From the NCBI GenBank assembly GCA_035063765.1, contig JAPSFT010000033.1, forward strand, positions 1-36,345: a stretch of 36,345 nt of DNA. The letters run 5' to 3'. Below are positions 23,011 through 33,809 of the stretch, piece by piece (position 1 is the stretch's first letter; every line of letters starts with the position of its first letter). Source of the DNA: Deltaproteobacteria bacterium. GTDB lineage: Bacteria > Myxococcota_A > UBA9160 > PR03. The translations under genes were made by a program, and so were the position numbers. The notes beneath the pieces are model-generated. The model searched no databases. It saw only the letters and a program-made list of their open reading frames with translations, and was not told the DNA's origin.

Positions 23011-23153
23011 GCGCGCTCCCGCTGGTCCGGGGGGACGTAGCACGCGCGCGCGGAGACGGTCAACGCGTGCGAGGCGCGTGCGCAGCGCGGCACCGCGGGC
23101 TCGCCGCGTCGCTCAGGAACCGCCCCCGCCCGCCCGATACGCAGGGAGCGCGC

Positions 23154-25481
23154 ATGGCTGGCCCCGCGGGGCGGCCGCTCGCCCTGGCGGAGGGACGGTT
23201 GGTGGCGATCGGGATCGATCTCGGGACCAGCAACTCGTGCGTCGCGGTCGCCCGCAAGGGGCGCGTCGACGTGCTCACCAACGCCTACGGCGAGACGATC
23301 GTCCCGAGCGTGGTGCACTTCGCCGCCGACGGCGCCACCACCGTGGGCCAGCAGGCGAAGGCGCGCGCGGTCCACGATCCCGAGAGCACGGTCACCGCCG
23401 CCAAGCGCCTGATGGGCCGCTACTTCTTCTCCGAGGAGGTGAAGAAGGCCAAGGCGGTCAGCAGCTACCAGATCGTCGAGGGCCCGAACCACTCCGTGCG
23501 CATCAAGGTGCGCGACCAGGTGCTCGCCATCCCCGAGGTCTCGGCCGTCGTCCTGAAGGAGATGAAGGCGATCGCCGAGGCGCAGCTCGGCCAGGCGGTG
23601 ACCCAGGCGGTGATCACGGTCCCCGCCTACTTCAACGACAACCAGCGCCAGGCCACCCGCGACGCCGGCAAGATCGCCGGCCTCGAGGTGCTGCGGCTGC
23701 TCAACGAGCCCACCGCCGCCGCCCTCGCCTACGGCTTCGGCAAGGGCCTCACCCAACGCGTCGCCGTGTACGACCTCGGCGGGGGAACCTTCGACATCTC
23801 GATCCTCGAGATCGGCGCGGACGTCTTCGAGGTGCTCTCCACCTGCGGCGACACCTTCCTGGGTGGCGAGGACTTCGACGACCGCGTGATCGACCTGCTC
23901 GCCGACGAGTTCATGGCGAAGCACAAGGTCAACCTGCGCCAGGACCGCTTCGCCCTCGAGAAGCTCAAGGCGGCCGCCGAGCAGGCCAAGAAGGACCTGT
24001 CGGCGGACGACGAGGCGACGATCCAGGTCTCCGAGGTGGCGCAGGACCCGGCCGGCGAGCCGCTCCACCTCGAGCGCGTCCTCACCAACACCGAGTTCTC
24101 TCGCCTGGTGGCAGACCTGATCCAGCGCACCTTCAAGGTCTGCGACGAGTCGCTGCAGCAGGCCAACCTGACCGTGCGCGACCTCGACGGCGTGATCCTG
24201 GTGGGAGGGCCGACGCGCCTGCCGCTGATCCGGGAGGCGGTGTCCCAGTACTTCCAGCGCGAGCCGAAGGCGGACGTCGACCCGGACCAGGTGGTCGCGA
24301 TGGGGGCCGCGATTCACGCCGCCTCGCTGGTCGGCGAGGAACGCGACTCCTGCCTGCTCGACGTGACACCGCTCTCGCTGCGCATCGGAGTGGCCGGCGG
24401 CCTCGCCGAGACCGTCATCGACCGCAACACGCCCGTCCCGATCGAACAGACGGCCGTGTTCACCACGTTCCGGGACTTCCAGCAGTCCGTGAAGATCCGC
24501 GTCTACCAGGGCGAGTCGCGCGTGCAGGAGGAGAACGAGCTGCTCGGTGAGTTCGAGTTCTCGGGCTTCAAGCACGCGCGTCGCGGGGAGGTGCGGATCG
24601 AGGTGACCTTCGAGATCGACACCGACGGCATCGTGAACGTGACGGCGCGCGACCCCGACACCGGACAGGTCGCCTCGACGCAGATCCACCTCTCGTCGGG
24701 CCTGTCGGACGAGGAGATCCGGACGCTGGTCGCCAAGCACCAGTCGCAGGCCGCGCCGGCACCGCCTCCCGGCGCGGGGGCGGCCGCCGCGCTGGCGGGC
24801 CACGCCCCCGCCCTGGCGCCCGCCGGCTCGTCCGCCGGCTTCGCACCCGGGGGCGACGGCGATCTCGATCTGGGGCTCGGAGCCGATCCCGACACCGACC
24901 TCGTGGCGCTCGAGACCGAGCCCGATGCACCCGAGGCGCTGCTCGCGCACGAGGCCGAGCCGCTGGCACGGGATGCGGACCCGGCGCCTGCCGCCCAGGC
25001 CCGCGACGAGCTCGAGCTCGACGCGGATCCCGGCCCCGAGCCGGTCACCGGTTCCGGTGCGGCCCCGGGGCGCGCCGAGGACCAGGAGTTCGATCTCGAT
25101 CTCGGCGGCGGGGGCGACGTCGAGCTGGCCGAGGCCGGCCCCGCGGAGCCGCTCTCGCCCGACGCCGAGCGCACGCTCGCGATCGGCGGCGAGATCGACC
25201 TCGAGGCGCTCGAGAGCGAGGCTGCGCCGGGCGGCGTGCTGGCCGGCGACGTCGAGCTCGACCCGCTCGACCTCGACGAGAGCGATCTCGACTCGCTGGC
25301 TTCCCTTCCCGACCCGGCGCCGGATGCGCGCGACCACGACGCCACCGCACTCGTCGAAGAGGACGAAGGCGCGATCACCCGCCCGCGACCGCCGGAGGGC
25401 GGCGGGATCCCGCCGCACGGCAGCCTCTTCGACGAGCCGGGTAGCGACCTCTCGCGCTACCAGGACGACGACGAATCCTGA
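23154..25481 (+). CDS. Hsp70 (DnaK-like) chaperone with acidic low-complexity tail and no recognisable lid
   Basis: A 775-residue Hsp70. The nucleotide-binding domain (about 15-395) has [39 protein letters not shown] and [12 protein letters not shown]. The beta-sandwich substrate domain (about 400-515) has [23 protein letters not shown] and [11 protein letters not shown]. Where DnaK normally has a helical lid, this protein has only a short helix ([12 protein letters not shown]) and then about 240 residues rich in Asp, Glu, Ala, Pro and Gly, with repeated short blocks such as DLDLG, FDLDLG, ELELD, IDLEALE and [11 protein letters not shown]. The housekeeping DnaK is therefore probably elsewhere. 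ATG 23154 follows AGGGAG by 6 nt. The N-terminus has about 15 extra residues. A J-domain gene follows after 14 nt. No CIRCE element is present in the 143-nt upstream gap. Confidence 0.92.
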
Positions 25482-25495
25482 CGGCCGGAGCCATC

Positions 25496-26026
25496 GTGTC
25501 CCCGAACCACAGCGCCGAGGTCCGCGCCCTCGCCGGCATCCTGGAGGAGCTCGACTACTACCAGGTGCTCGAGCTGCGCTCCGACGCGCCCACGTCGGCG
25601 ATCCGCAGCGCGTACCACGCCGTCTCGCGGCGCTTCCATCCCGATGCCCACCGCGACGCACCGGGCGAGCTCCAGCAGCAGGTGGCGCGGATCGCGAAGC
25701 GGATCGCGGAGGCCTACTCGGTGCTGCGCGATCCACGCCGGCGCCAGGTCTACGACCGCCAGCTCGCCGGCGACCGGGAGCGCGTGCGGATGCCGCTCGC
25801 CGAGGCCGAGGCGCAGGCGGACCGGCAGCGACGCGAGCAGCAGGAGGGGCGCACGCCGAACGGGCGGCGCTACTTCGCACTCGCCAAGGCCGACGTCGCA
25901 CGCGGCGACCGGGCGGCGGCAGAGCGCAACCTGAAGACCGCCCTGACCTTCGAGCCCGACAACGAGGTGTTCCGCGATCTGCTCGCGCGCGTGCGCGGCA
26001 AGGCGGTCTCGGGCTCCACCCGTTGA
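25496..26026 (+). CDS. J-domain protein with C-terminal helical repeat
   Basis: A 176-residue co-chaperone, likely the dedicated partner of the Hsp70 encoded 14 nt upstream. Residues about 18-88 form a J domain (DYYQVLELRSDAPTSAIRSAY) with the essential His48-Pro49-Asp50 loop and YSVLRDPRRRQVYD. The region that follows is charged and helical (about 90-120). It ends with one TPR-like pair (GRRYFALAKADVARGDRAAA and AERNLKTALTFEPDNEVF). There is no Gly/Phe-rich or zinc-finger region, so it is a class C (type III) J protein, not DnaJ. The GTG start at 25496 follows GGAG. Confidence 0.9.
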   Translation: MSPNHSAEVRALAGILEELDYYQVLELRSDAPTSAIRSAYHAVSRRFHPDAHRDAPGELQQQVARIAKRIAEAYSVLRDPRRRQVYDRQLAGDRERVRMPLAEAEAQADRQRREQQEGRTPNGRRYFALAKADVARGDRAAAERNLKTALTFEPDNEVFRDLLARVRGKAVSGSTR

Positions 26027-26084: not shown

Positions 26085-26090
26085 TATGAT
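26085..26090 (+). promoter_or_regulatory. Candidate -10 element (TATGAT) of a leaderless promoter
   Basis: TATGAT matches the -10 consensus at five of six positions and lies 7 nt before an in-frame GTG at 26098. If it is used, transcription would start at or next to that GTG, and the overlapping ATG codons at 26086 and 26089 would not be transcribed. No clear -35 is visible. Confidence 0.4.
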
Positions 26091-28176
26091 GCCGCCCGTG
26101 CGCCCGACCCCTGCGCTCGCCGTGACCGCCGTCGCGATGCTCCTTCTCGCACTCCCGACGGGATGCAGCGAGGCGGAAGCGCCGCGTGCGGCCTCGACCC
26201 CGCCCGCCGGCGCCGCGCCGCCCGCTGCCGCCGCACAGCCGGCCGCCGCGGCGGCCCCGCCGGCCGTGCGCCGGCAGGAGCGCCCGCTTCCCGGGTTCGA
26301 GGGCACGACCCTCGACGGGCAGCCCTTCACCGTCTCGGAGCTGATGGGCCGGCGTGCCCTGCTCTTCTTCTTCGATCCCGGGGCCCGCGAGGCGGGACCC
26401 GCCGCTGCTGCGGTTGCGCGCGTGGCGGGGGAGCGCGCGCGGAACAACTTCGAGATCGTCGGCATCGCCGTCGGCGCCGGCGCCGACCGGGCGCGCGCCT
26501 TCGCGAAGGAGCACGGCCTCACCTTCCCGATCCTCGACGACCCGGTCTCCGCGATCCAGCGCAGCGTCGGGCTGCGCGCTCCGATGGCGCTGATCGGTGT
26601 CGATGCCGAGGGCTACGTGACCTTCGCGTCGGGCGTACCGCCGCCAGAGGCAGCCAACGCCGCGAAGGTCGTCGAGAGCGAGCTGCGCGAGGCCCTGCGC
26701 CTGCCCACCGACGAGCCCGTGCTGGCGCCCCTGCTCGGCGTGCGGCCCGCTGCGCCGACCTTCACGGCCGAGCGGCTCGAGGGCGGGCCCCGCTTCGACC
26801 TCGCCTCGCTCGCGGGCCGACCGGTCGTGCTGATGTTCTTCCTCCACACCTGCCCGCACTGCCACCACGCGCTCGAGTTCCTGAAGAGCGAGCTGCCGAA
26901 GCTCCCGGAGGCGCAGCGCCCGCAGCTCGTCGGCGTGTCGGTGGCGGGCGATCCGGCCTCCGTGCAGGAGAGCCTCCGGGCGGACGGACTCGACTTCTTC
27001 CCCGTGCTGCTCGACCTCGACGGCGCGTTGCGCGCGGCCTACGGCGTGCTCGGCGGGGTTCCGGACATCTTCGTGATCGATGGCTCGGGCGCGGTCGTGA
27101 GCCGCGTCCAGGGCTGGCGCGACGACCGCGACCCTGCGCTGGTGCGCATGTGGCTGGCGCGCATCGCCGGGCAGAAGGTACCGATGCTGCTCCACTCGAC
27201 CGGCTACAGCGGCAGCGACGCCTGCGCGGTGTGCCACGAACAGGAGACCGAGACCTGGCTCCTGACCCGTCACGCGCACGCCTTCGACACGCTCGTGAAG
27301 CACGCAGCCGACGCGGATCCCGAGTGCGTCGGCTGCCACGTCGTCGGGTTCGGGCAGACCGGCGGCTACACGATCTCGCCGCGGACCCCCGACTTCGAGA
27401 ACGTGGGCTGCGAGTCCTGCCACGGGCGCGGCGGACCCCACCTCTCACCCGGCTTCGTGACGGCCGGGAACTACGAGCCGGTGTGCCTCGGCTGCCACGA
27501 CCAGGAGCACTCGCTCGGCTTCCAGTTCGCGAGCTTCCTGCCGAAGGTCTCGCACGCCGCCAATGCGGAGCTCGCGTCGCTGCCGCTCGCGAAGCGTCAG
27601 GAGCTGCTGGCGGCACGAATGCGCCCGCGCAACGACCTGCTGCCGAGCAACGCCGCCTACGTGGGCTCCGAGGCCTGCCGCTCCTGCCACGAGCAGGAGT
27701 TCGCCACCTGGTCGGCGGGCCCCCACGCACGGGCGATCGCCCCGCTCGAGGCCAAGGGCGAGGCGGACAACGCCACCTGCCAGGCCTGTCACGTGACGGC
27801 GCTCGGCAAGCCCGGCGGTTACCCGAAGGGCGCGTCGCACGGCGCCCATGCGGACCTCGCGCGGGTCGGCTGCGAGTCGTGCCACGGGCCGGGCGGCAAC
27901 CACGTGGGCGAGGGAGCGCCGCGGATCGGGACCATCGTCTCGCTCGGCGACAAGTGCGACTCGTGCGTGATCCTCCAGATCTGCGGCGCCTGCCACGACC
28001 AGGCCAACGATCCCGGCTTCGAGTTCGCCGTGAAGCAGAAGATCGAGCGTCAGAAGCACGGCACCATCGAGGCGTCCGCGACGCGCGCCGGGAAGTCGGC
28101 GGCACGGGTGCCCGCGGGCGCGTCCCTGGTCGGTGCGCTCGAGCGCGGCTTCGCGCTGCTCGACGCCCGGAGCTGA
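26086..28176 (+). CDS. Lipoprotein with two thioredoxin-fold domains and an octahaem cytochrome c region
   Basis: A 696-residue exported redox protein. The N-terminus is a signal peptide with a possible lipobox (LPTGC; Pro at -3 is not ideal), then an Ala/Pro-rich spacer. Domain 1 (about 60-205) has a redoxin fold, but DPGAREAGP replaces the active-site cysteine motif, so it is probably not catalytic. Domain 2 (about 215-365) is TlpA/AhpC-like with Cys256-Pro-His-Cys259 in FLHTCPHCHH. The C-terminal half (about 372-650) has eight CxxCH haem c motifs: CAVCH, CVGCH, CESCH, CLGCH, CRSCH, CQACH, CESCH and CGACH. They fall in two tetrahaem repeats, each beginning Y-x-GS-x-AC and containing GCESCHG, resembling the cytochrome c554 family. 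The start is ambiguous: ATG 26086 is used here, but GTG 26098 is better if the leaderless promoter is real. The haem and thiol partners are unknown. Confidence 0.88.
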   Translation: MMPPVRPTPALAVTAVAMLLLALPTGCSEAEAPRAASTPPAGAAPPAAAAQPAAAAAPPAVRRQERPLPGFEGTTLDGQPFTVSELMGRRALLFFFDPGAREAGPAAAAVARVAGERARNNFEIVGIAVGAGADRARAFAKEHGLTFPILDDPVSAIQRSVGLRAPMALIGVDAEGYVTFASGVPPPEAANAAKVVESELREALRLPTDEPVLAPLLGVRPAAPTFTAERLEGGPRFDLASLAGRPVVLMFFLHTCPHCHHALEFLKSELPKLPEAQRPQLVGVSVAGDPASVQESLRADGLDFFPVLLDLDGALRAAYGVLGGVPDIFVIDGSGAVVSRVQGWRDDRDPALVRMWLARIAGQKVPMLLHSTGYSGSDACAVCHEQETETWLLTRHAHAFDTLVKHAADADPECVGCHVVGFGQTGGYTISPRTPDFENVGCESCHGRGGPHLSPGFVTAGNYEPVCLGCHDQEHSLGFQFASFLPKVSHAANAELASLPLAKRQELLAARMRPRNDLLPSNAAYVGSEACRSCHEQEFATWSAGPHARAIAPLEAKGEADNATCQACHVTALGKPGGYPKGASHGAHADLARVGCESCHGPGGNHVGEGAPRIGTIVSLGDKCDSCVILQICGACHDQANDPGFEFAVKQKIERQKHGTIEASATRAGKSAARVPAGASLVGALERGFALLDARS

Positions 28177-32273: not shown

Positions 32274-33809
32274 ATGGCCCGCGTCGTTGCACGCATCGCT
32301 CTCGCCGCCCTGCTCCTCTCCGCCCTCGCGATCGGCGCCTGCCGCCTCCTGCTCCCGGAGCGCTATGCCGTGAACGCGCCGCTCGGCCAGCTGCTCTTCG
32401 GCCGCGGCGGCAAGGCGCCGCCGCCCGACGCGGTCGCGGGACTGCTCACGGTCCCGGCCGGCTTCGCCGTCGAGCAGTGGGTGACCGGGATCGCGAACGC
32501 GCGCCTCCTGCGCTTCACGCCGGCGGGCGACCTCCTGGTCTCGACGCCCCGCTCCGGGCGCATCGTGCTCGTCGAGCGCGACCGGGACGGTGACGGGCGC
32601 GCCGACGGCATCCACCCGCTCCTCGAGGGGCTCGACCGGCCGCACGGAATCGACCTCCACGACGGCTGGCTCTACGTCGGCGAGACGGGCGCCGTCGCAC
32701 GCGTGCGCTTCGATCCCCAGGCGCGGCGCACCGAGGGCGCACTCGAGCGCGTCGTCACCGGGCTGCCCGCCGGCGGCAACCACTGGACACGCAGCGTGCG
32801 CTTCGGCCCCGATGGCTGGATGTACGTGTCGGTGGGTTCGAGCTGCAACGCCTGTATCGAGGGCGACCCGCGGCGAGCGGCGATCCTGCGCTTCCGGCCC
32901 GACGGGAGCAGCGGCGAGATCTTCGCGACCGGCCTGCGCAACTCCGTCGGCCTCGACTGGCGTCCCGCGACCGGCGAGCTCTACGCGACCGACAACGGGC
33001 GCGACCTGCTCGGCGACGACTTCCCGCCCTGCGAGCTGAACCGCATCGTCCGGGGCGGCTTCTACGGCTGGCCCTTCGCCAACGGCGACCGGGTTCCGGA
33101 CCCGGACCTCGGTGCCGGCCACGAGCGGGAGATCGCGGCGTCGATGCCTCCGGTGCACGGGTTCCGCGCCCACAATGCGCCGCTCGGGATCACCTTCCTG
33201 CGCGCCGGAAGCTGGCCCGAGCGCTACCGGGGAGCGGCGGTCGTCGCCCTCCATGGCTCGTGGAATCGCACGCGCAAGGACGGCTACCAGGTCGTCTCGC
33301 TGCACTGGGGCCCGGACGGGCGGATCGAGGAGCGTCCCTTCCTGAGCGGCTTCCTGCGCGACGACGAGGCGCTCGGCCGGCCGGTCGACGTCGCGGAGGG
33401 GCCGGACGGGGCGCTCTACGTCTCGGACGACTACGGCGGCGCGATCTACCGGGTGCGCCCGCGCGCAAAGGGCGAAGCGAGCGTACCCCCGAAGACGGCG
33501 CGGCCGGCCGCCCCGGCCACCCCCGTAGACCCGCTCGCCGGCCTCTCCGAAGGCGAGCGCTCGGCGAGCCGGCAGCGGGGCGCGGCCCTGTACGAAACCC
33601 ACCACTGTGCCCGCTGCCACGAACCGGAGCAGGCCGACCCCGGCGTCGTCGCGGTGCCGCTGTCCGTGGAGCGGCTCGCGTCGCGCTTCGATGTCGCCTC
33701 GCTCGCGCGCTTCCTGCTGGCGCCGACACCGCCGATGCCGGCCCTGGCGATCAGTGAAGGCGAGCGCGGCGACCTGGCCGTCTTCCTGCTCTCGGAGCGC
33801 GGCGACTAG
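32274..33809 (+). CDS. PQQ-dependent sugar (sorbosone/glucose-type) dehydrogenase-like lipoprotein with C-terminal cytochrome c
   Basis: A 511-residue exported protein. The signal peptide ends at a good lipobox (AIGAC). Residues about 55-400 form a six-bladed beta-propeller of the GSDH/sorbosone dehydrogenase type: VPAGFAVEQWVTGIANARLL, LDRPHGIDLHDGWLYVGET, GNHWTRSVRFGPDGWMYVSVGSS, ATGLRNSVGLDWRP, LYATDNGRDLLGDD and GGFYGWPFANGD. A Pro/Ala linker follows (about 400-420), then a monohaem cytochrome c domain with CARCH (Cys445, Cys448, His449) and candidate Met ligands in PMPAL. The haem domain would accept electrons from the quinone cofactor. The sugar substrate is not predictable. PQQ synthesis genes are not in the window. 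Its TAG stop shares the tetranucleotide CTAG with the convergent gene's stop. Confidence 0.9.
   Translation: MARVVARIALAALLLSALAIGACRLLLPERYAVNAPLGQLLFGRGGKAPPPDAVAGLLTVPAGFAVEQWVTGIANARLLRFTPAGDLLVSTPRSGRIVLVERDRDGDGRADGIHPLLEGLDRPHGIDLHDGWLYVGETGAVARVRFDPQARRTEGALERVVTGLPAGGNHWTRSVRFGPDGWMYVSVGSSCNACIEGDPRRAAILRFRPDGSSGEIFATGLRNSVGLDWRPATGELYATDNGRDLLGDDFPPCELNRIVRGGFYGWPFANGDRVPDPDLGAGHEREIAASMPPVHGFRAHNAPLGITFLRAGSWPERYRGAAVVALHGSWNRTRKDGYQVVSLHWGPDGRIEERPFLSGFLRDDEALGRPVDVAEGPDGALYVSDDYGGAIYRVRPRAKGEASVPPKTARPAAPATPVDPLAGLSEGERSASRQRGAALYETHHCARCHEPEQADPGVVAVPLSVERLASRFDVASLARFLLAPTPPMPALAISEGERGDLAVFLLSERGD

Follow-up and report, generated by a model that had tools for sequence, protein, structure and literature searches.

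Does a single exported protein link thiol/disulfide exchange to electron transfer by haems? This question is raised by a gene in the 36,345 nt-long stretch of DNA analysed here (hereafter the window; Deltaproteobacteria bacterium, contig JAPSFT010000033.1), whose product combines redoxin domains and haem-binding repeats. Electrons travel in pairs in thiol chemistry and one at a time through haems, and we know of few proteins that join the two kinds of transfer directly. Judging from the sequence, we assign a probability of about one half to the reading in which both are linked inside this one exported, probably lipid-anchored chain. If it is true, the protein would represent a compact junction, pairing a redoxin dithiol with a second, invariant dithiol next to a haem and occurring almost throughout a bacterial order.

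The fused gene and its conservation

The 696-aa protein matches the Pfam families AhpC-TSA/Redoxin and Cytochrome_C554 twice each (Table 1), in the order redoxin-redoxin-octahaem proposed in the initial annotation of this DNA. The same annotation had described an exported protein, with a first redoxin devoid of active-site cysteines, a second one with an intact CPHC and two tetrahaem repeats, and this anatomy was borne out: there is a signal sequence at the N-terminus, Cys is absent from redoxin 1 in each of the 45 homologues aligned, both Cys of CPHC are invariant in the homologues, and the haem motifs form two repeats with near-identical spacing. The count of eight CxxCH stood for the haem-type motifs; the literal count is nine, since CPHC followed by H260 also matches the pattern. 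The architecture is a new, widely conserved combination of known domains.

Precisely, H260 is replaced by Arg or Gln in 2 of the 45 homologues and by Gln, Arg, Val, Thr, Leu or Ala in redoxin-octahaem relatives that are about 30% identical, and none of the remoter redoxin-octahaem proteins that were checked retains it. Because relatives replace this residue, we considered CPHC as the redoxin active site and not as a haem site, and a ninth haem at CPHCH was judged unlikely.

Table 1 Features of the redoxin-redoxin-octahaem gene, in positions of the window
Feature	Position	Strand	Details and basis
Redoxin-redoxin-octahaem gene	26086..28176	+	696 aa plus stop, translated without internal stop
Signal sequence with the probable lipobox LPTGC (C27) at its end	26086..26166	+	Sequence; aligned Cys in homologues
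Ala/Pro-rich linker, residues 28-63	26167..26274	+	Mostly unstructured in the model
Redoxin domain 1, residues 64-206, ResA-like fold, 0 Cys	26275..26703	+	VIA match to ResA
Redoxin domain 2, residues 215-363, ResA/DsbE-like	26728..27174	+	VIA match to 3gl3; AhpC-TSA 6.6e-27
CPHC active site C256-C259, then H260	26851..26862	+	Homologue alignment
Tetrahaem repeat 1, residues 374-490, motifs at 380, 414, 442, 467	27205..27555	+	Cytochrome_C554 5.7e-26; c554 1bvb 3.6e-13
Tetrahaem repeat 2, residues 525-658, motifs at 531, 565, 596, 633	27658..28059	+	Pfam, NCBIfam, sequence
Non-haem dithiol C624-D-S-C627	27955..27966	+	45/45 homologues; 0/66 c554 proteins without redoxin
Haem 8 motif CGACH, residues 633-637	27982..27996	+	5 residues separate C627 from the motif

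The window protein is at most probably a lipoprotein: its N-terminal LPTGC has Pro at -3, a Cys is aligned at the position of C27 in 35 of the 45 homologues, and a relaxed lipobox pattern fits 29 of the 45.

Two objections to the fused gene were also checked, namely that the frame might be a sequencing join of two genes and that homologues might carry the redoxin and haem regions as separate genes. Full-length matches in a single frame were found in about 74 of 98 related genomes, the remaining homologues being mostly partial matches at contig ends or matches with internal gaps; hence an assembly join was rejected. No homologue with the two parts split into separate genes was seen among the relatives, in which they stay together. 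The full-length homologues are 42-73% identical, and an identity of about 46-73% over most of the length across the order rules out a chance likeness. The named records of these relatives are metagenome assemblies of Myxococcota and 'Deltaproteobacteria'.

Across the order and the class a gene-order block is shared (ruvBAC, yebC, dnaK and a J-domain gene), after which there are often a DUF35-like gene and a thiolase, and then the redoxin-octahaem gene; downstream from it, sometimes, comes an enoyl-CoA hydratase, then uracil-DNA glycosylase, purE and aroE. These neighbours are housekeeping genes and are uninformative on function. In the window, a gene upstream from the fusion gene, within this class-wide block, encodes a DnaK-like protein of 804 aa with a long acidic tail (23067-26026) and adjoins that of the J-domain protein. 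One class relative (G085) has two full-length copies of the redoxin-octahaem gene (L035 and L036), only one of them within the conserved block. Positions 32274-33809 of the window encode a glucose/sorbosone-dehydrogenase-like protein with a single-haem cytochrome c domain at its C-terminus.

Comparison with known redoxins and cytochromes

The structure was predicted with AlphaFold2 from 79 sequences (mean pLDDT 79.6, pTM 0.70), an earlier model from 15 sequences being poor in the haem region. The pLDDT was above 90 over most of the length of both redoxins and mostly 80-91 in the haem repeats, about 45-70 around haem 8 and below 50 for residues 1-55. The Foldseek and VIA matches listed were thioredoxin folds, with redoxin 1 superposed on ResA 2h1b (VIA Z 20.6, 134 residues, rmsd 1.6) and redoxin 2 on 3gl3, a Chlorobium DsbE (VIA Z 20.8, 140 residues, rmsd 1.7); the haem part was matched to c554 by sequence (1bvb, 3.6e-13). 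Redoxin 2 therefore has both the thioredoxin fold, by its Z of 20.8 to 3gl3, and an invariant CxxC, C256/C259.

Both redoxins share the fold of the extracytoplasmic thioredoxins ResA, CcmG, DsbE and TlpA (Z about 20). They differ from these proteins in that redoxin 1 is free of Cys, redoxin 2 has CPHC and its homologues mostly lack the ResA-type Glu, and both are fused to haem repeats. The scores were below the curated cut-offs of ResA (NCBIfam, 48.3 vs 170) and of DsbE (PRK15412, 26.7 vs 359).

As for the haem part, it resembles the Nitrosomonas cytochrome c554 (PF13435, 1bvb) in its tetrahaem family match and in the order of its motifs, present twice here, with 91.7 bits against a gathering threshold of 20.8 over two stretches; the cut-off of the cytochrome c-550/c554 equivalog NF043010 was not reached (78.6 vs 400 bits). 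Unlike c554, the window protein is doubled to eight haems, is fused to two redoxins and has an extra CxxC beside haem 8. In cytochrome c554, three haems have His/His ligation and the fourth is open, for which three non-motif His are needed. Each repeat of the window protein has three such residues (H396, H452 and H490; H547, H606 and H658), each conserved in 44-45 of the 45 homologues, a number that would fit a c554-like ligation.

The haem repeats are also matched by the C-terminal part of a UshA-like PCGU (seleno)protein family, NF041198, at 184 bits against a cut-off of 275. The window protein differs from this family in lacking the phosphoesterase part, and its homologues have no in-frame Sec. 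In fact, the in-frame TGAs within homologue matches are ordinary C-terminal stops, and a selenoprotein was rejected. Neither a redoxin-octahaem fusion nor the CxxC-haem motif was found in the literature, of which the coverage was partial.

A second dithiol beside haem 8

The protein has an extra CxxC at residues 624-627 (KCDSCVILQICGACH), unmentioned in the initial annotation and invariant in 45 of the 45 aligned homologues. No stretch of the protein is better conserved than the 25 residues starting at 623: the mean frequency of the commonest residue is 0.90, compared to 0.76 in the next-best stretch. We counted the Cys of each region in the homologue alignment (n = 45). Redoxin 2 has 2 Cys in 44 of the homologues and the haem region has 18 in 42 of them, that is, the 16 haem Cys plus 2, none being located after haem 8. 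Given this inventory and the Cys-free redoxin 1, the non-haem Cys of the mature chain are, barring the lipid-bearing one, those of CPHC and C624/C627 only, in almost every homologue.

The pair is very near haem 8 in sequence and, as structural residues too can be invariant, it could be purely structural, such as a disulfide or a metal clamp on the haem-8 loop, with an unrelated role for the redoxins. This explanation appears improbable to us: a CxxC located 3-8 residues ahead of a CxxCH was found in none of 66 related c554 proteins without redoxin, and it is kept in the redoxin-octahaem proteins, so the second dithiol tracks the redoxin and not the haem fold. The coupling of thiols and haems gains support from this confinement of an invariant dithiol by haem 8 to redoxin-octahaem proteins, rather than from the fusion alone.

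The pattern extends to the wider family. Redoxin-octahaem relatives sharing about 27-36% identity with the window protein have a motif near LG[DE]xCPxCVIExxCxxCH. A second clade (L152-L165, L082-L085), from other families of the phylum, consists of proteins of about 460-585 aa with one redoxin and the octahaem part; the signature CxxC-x5-CxxCH was present in 12 of the 14 single-redoxin proteins examined, the exceptions being L164, which is truncated at the end of its contig, and L165, in which two Cys stand farther apart. A further redoxin-haem fusion from a Thermodesulfobacteriota assembly (L081:9842-11743) has a redoxin-1-like region and both dithiols (CSNC and CMSC) and has lost the sixth haem motif.

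Direction of electron transfer and alternative roles

In the mechanism that we propose, the best supported of the readings considered, redoxin 1 would be a dead redoxin, probably structural or partner-binding, and redoxin 2 would exchange electrons with protein or small thiols via CPHC. Electrons would pass in twos, through a putative relay, between CPHC and C624/C627, and then between the latter and haem 8, which is adjacent in sequence; the c554-type haems would transfer single electrons to or from a presumed external partner. Transfer from thiols through the haems to the respiratory chain would be the likelier direction. The case for coupling is weakened by the predicted structure, which is poor around haem 8.

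An x-His dipeptide in the active site is a feature of DsbA and PDI, and its His is present in 44 of the 45 homologues. The Glu three residues past the second active-site Cys, a ResA/CcmG trait known as Glu80 of ResA, corresponds to A262 in the window protein, and the homologues have Ala in 35 cases and Glu in 1 case out of 45. The reading leans towards thiol oxidation on account of these two features, the x-His site and the missing ResA-type Glu.

The same anatomy would also serve a disulfide reductant, in which respiratory electrons pass via the haems to C624/C627 and CPHC and then to the disulfides of exported proteins or to extracellular sulfur compounds. Shewanella offers precedents for this opposite direction, since NapB has been reported to reduce CcmG (PMC8782879) and Mtr mutants are poorer at reducing DTNB (PMC10986466). 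We consider such a reductant unlikely, in that a CcdA/DsbD-type membrane reductant (CcdA/DsbD_TM) is already present in 19 of the 21 near genomes searched, that of the window included, and the x-His site without the ResA-type Glu is mildly contrary to a reductase. The potential is not fixed by a CPHC site on its own: in another thioredoxin, AfTrx3, a mutation to CPHC raised it only to -221 mV, compared to -89 to -124 mV in DsbA (PMC4395160). Owing to this precedent and to the Shewanella cases running from cytochrome to thiol, a strong claim for thiol-to-haem transfer is unwarranted.

Redoxin 2 might instead act as a private ResA/CcmG, reducing the haem-binding Cys of its own chain before haem attachment and being otherwise inert. 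Its ResA/CcmG-like fold and the 16 haem Cys in cis are in favour of this maturation role. However, it would leave the invariant non-haem CxxC by haem 8 unexplained, the ResA-type Glu is absent, and a fused redoxin is lacking in many multihaem proteins, the 66 c554 proteins among them; we regard it as very doubtful.

Returning to thiol-to-haem transfer, a haem-linked thiol oxidase can be envisaged, in which electrons of exported or DsbA-like proteins would flow to CPHC, C624/C627 and haem 8 and then, through the eight haems, into the respiratory chain. With the DsbA-DsbB/VKOR systems it would possibly share the logic of an oxidising x-His dithiol followed by a further dithiol adjacent to a cofactor that takes up electrons, but the window protein has haems in place of a quinone, has no membrane bundle and shows no sequence relation that we could find. 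This oxidase seems unlikely; if real, it would give disulfide formation another electron sink in addition to DsbB and VKOR, of which neither was found in half of the genomes sampled from the class of the window (10/20, from a 96-genome sample of the phylum).

If the protein were the principal thiol oxidase, its carriers would be expected to be short of DsbB and VKOR. Such a replacement was considered and rejected, because in this phylum-wide sample there was no association: genomes showing neither oxidase numbered 10 among the 35 carriers of a redoxin-octahaem protein and 19 among the 61 others, counts which are uncorrected for kinship and rest on Pfam profiles that may miss distant DsbB. Among carriers of the single-redoxin form, 0 of 15 were without both oxidases, and all 15 have VKOR.

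The matter bears on periplasmic thiol handling in bacteria that are rich in DsbA-like proteins and have no recognised DsbB or VKOR. Of the 21 near genomes, only 4 showed DsbB or VKOR, which by itself had looked promising for a replacement; the genome of the window carries a DsbB-like gene. DsbA-family matches were found in all 21, with 2-13 per genome, and the several proteins of this family that we inspected are lipoproteins, membrane-anchored or exported, with CPFC-type sites.
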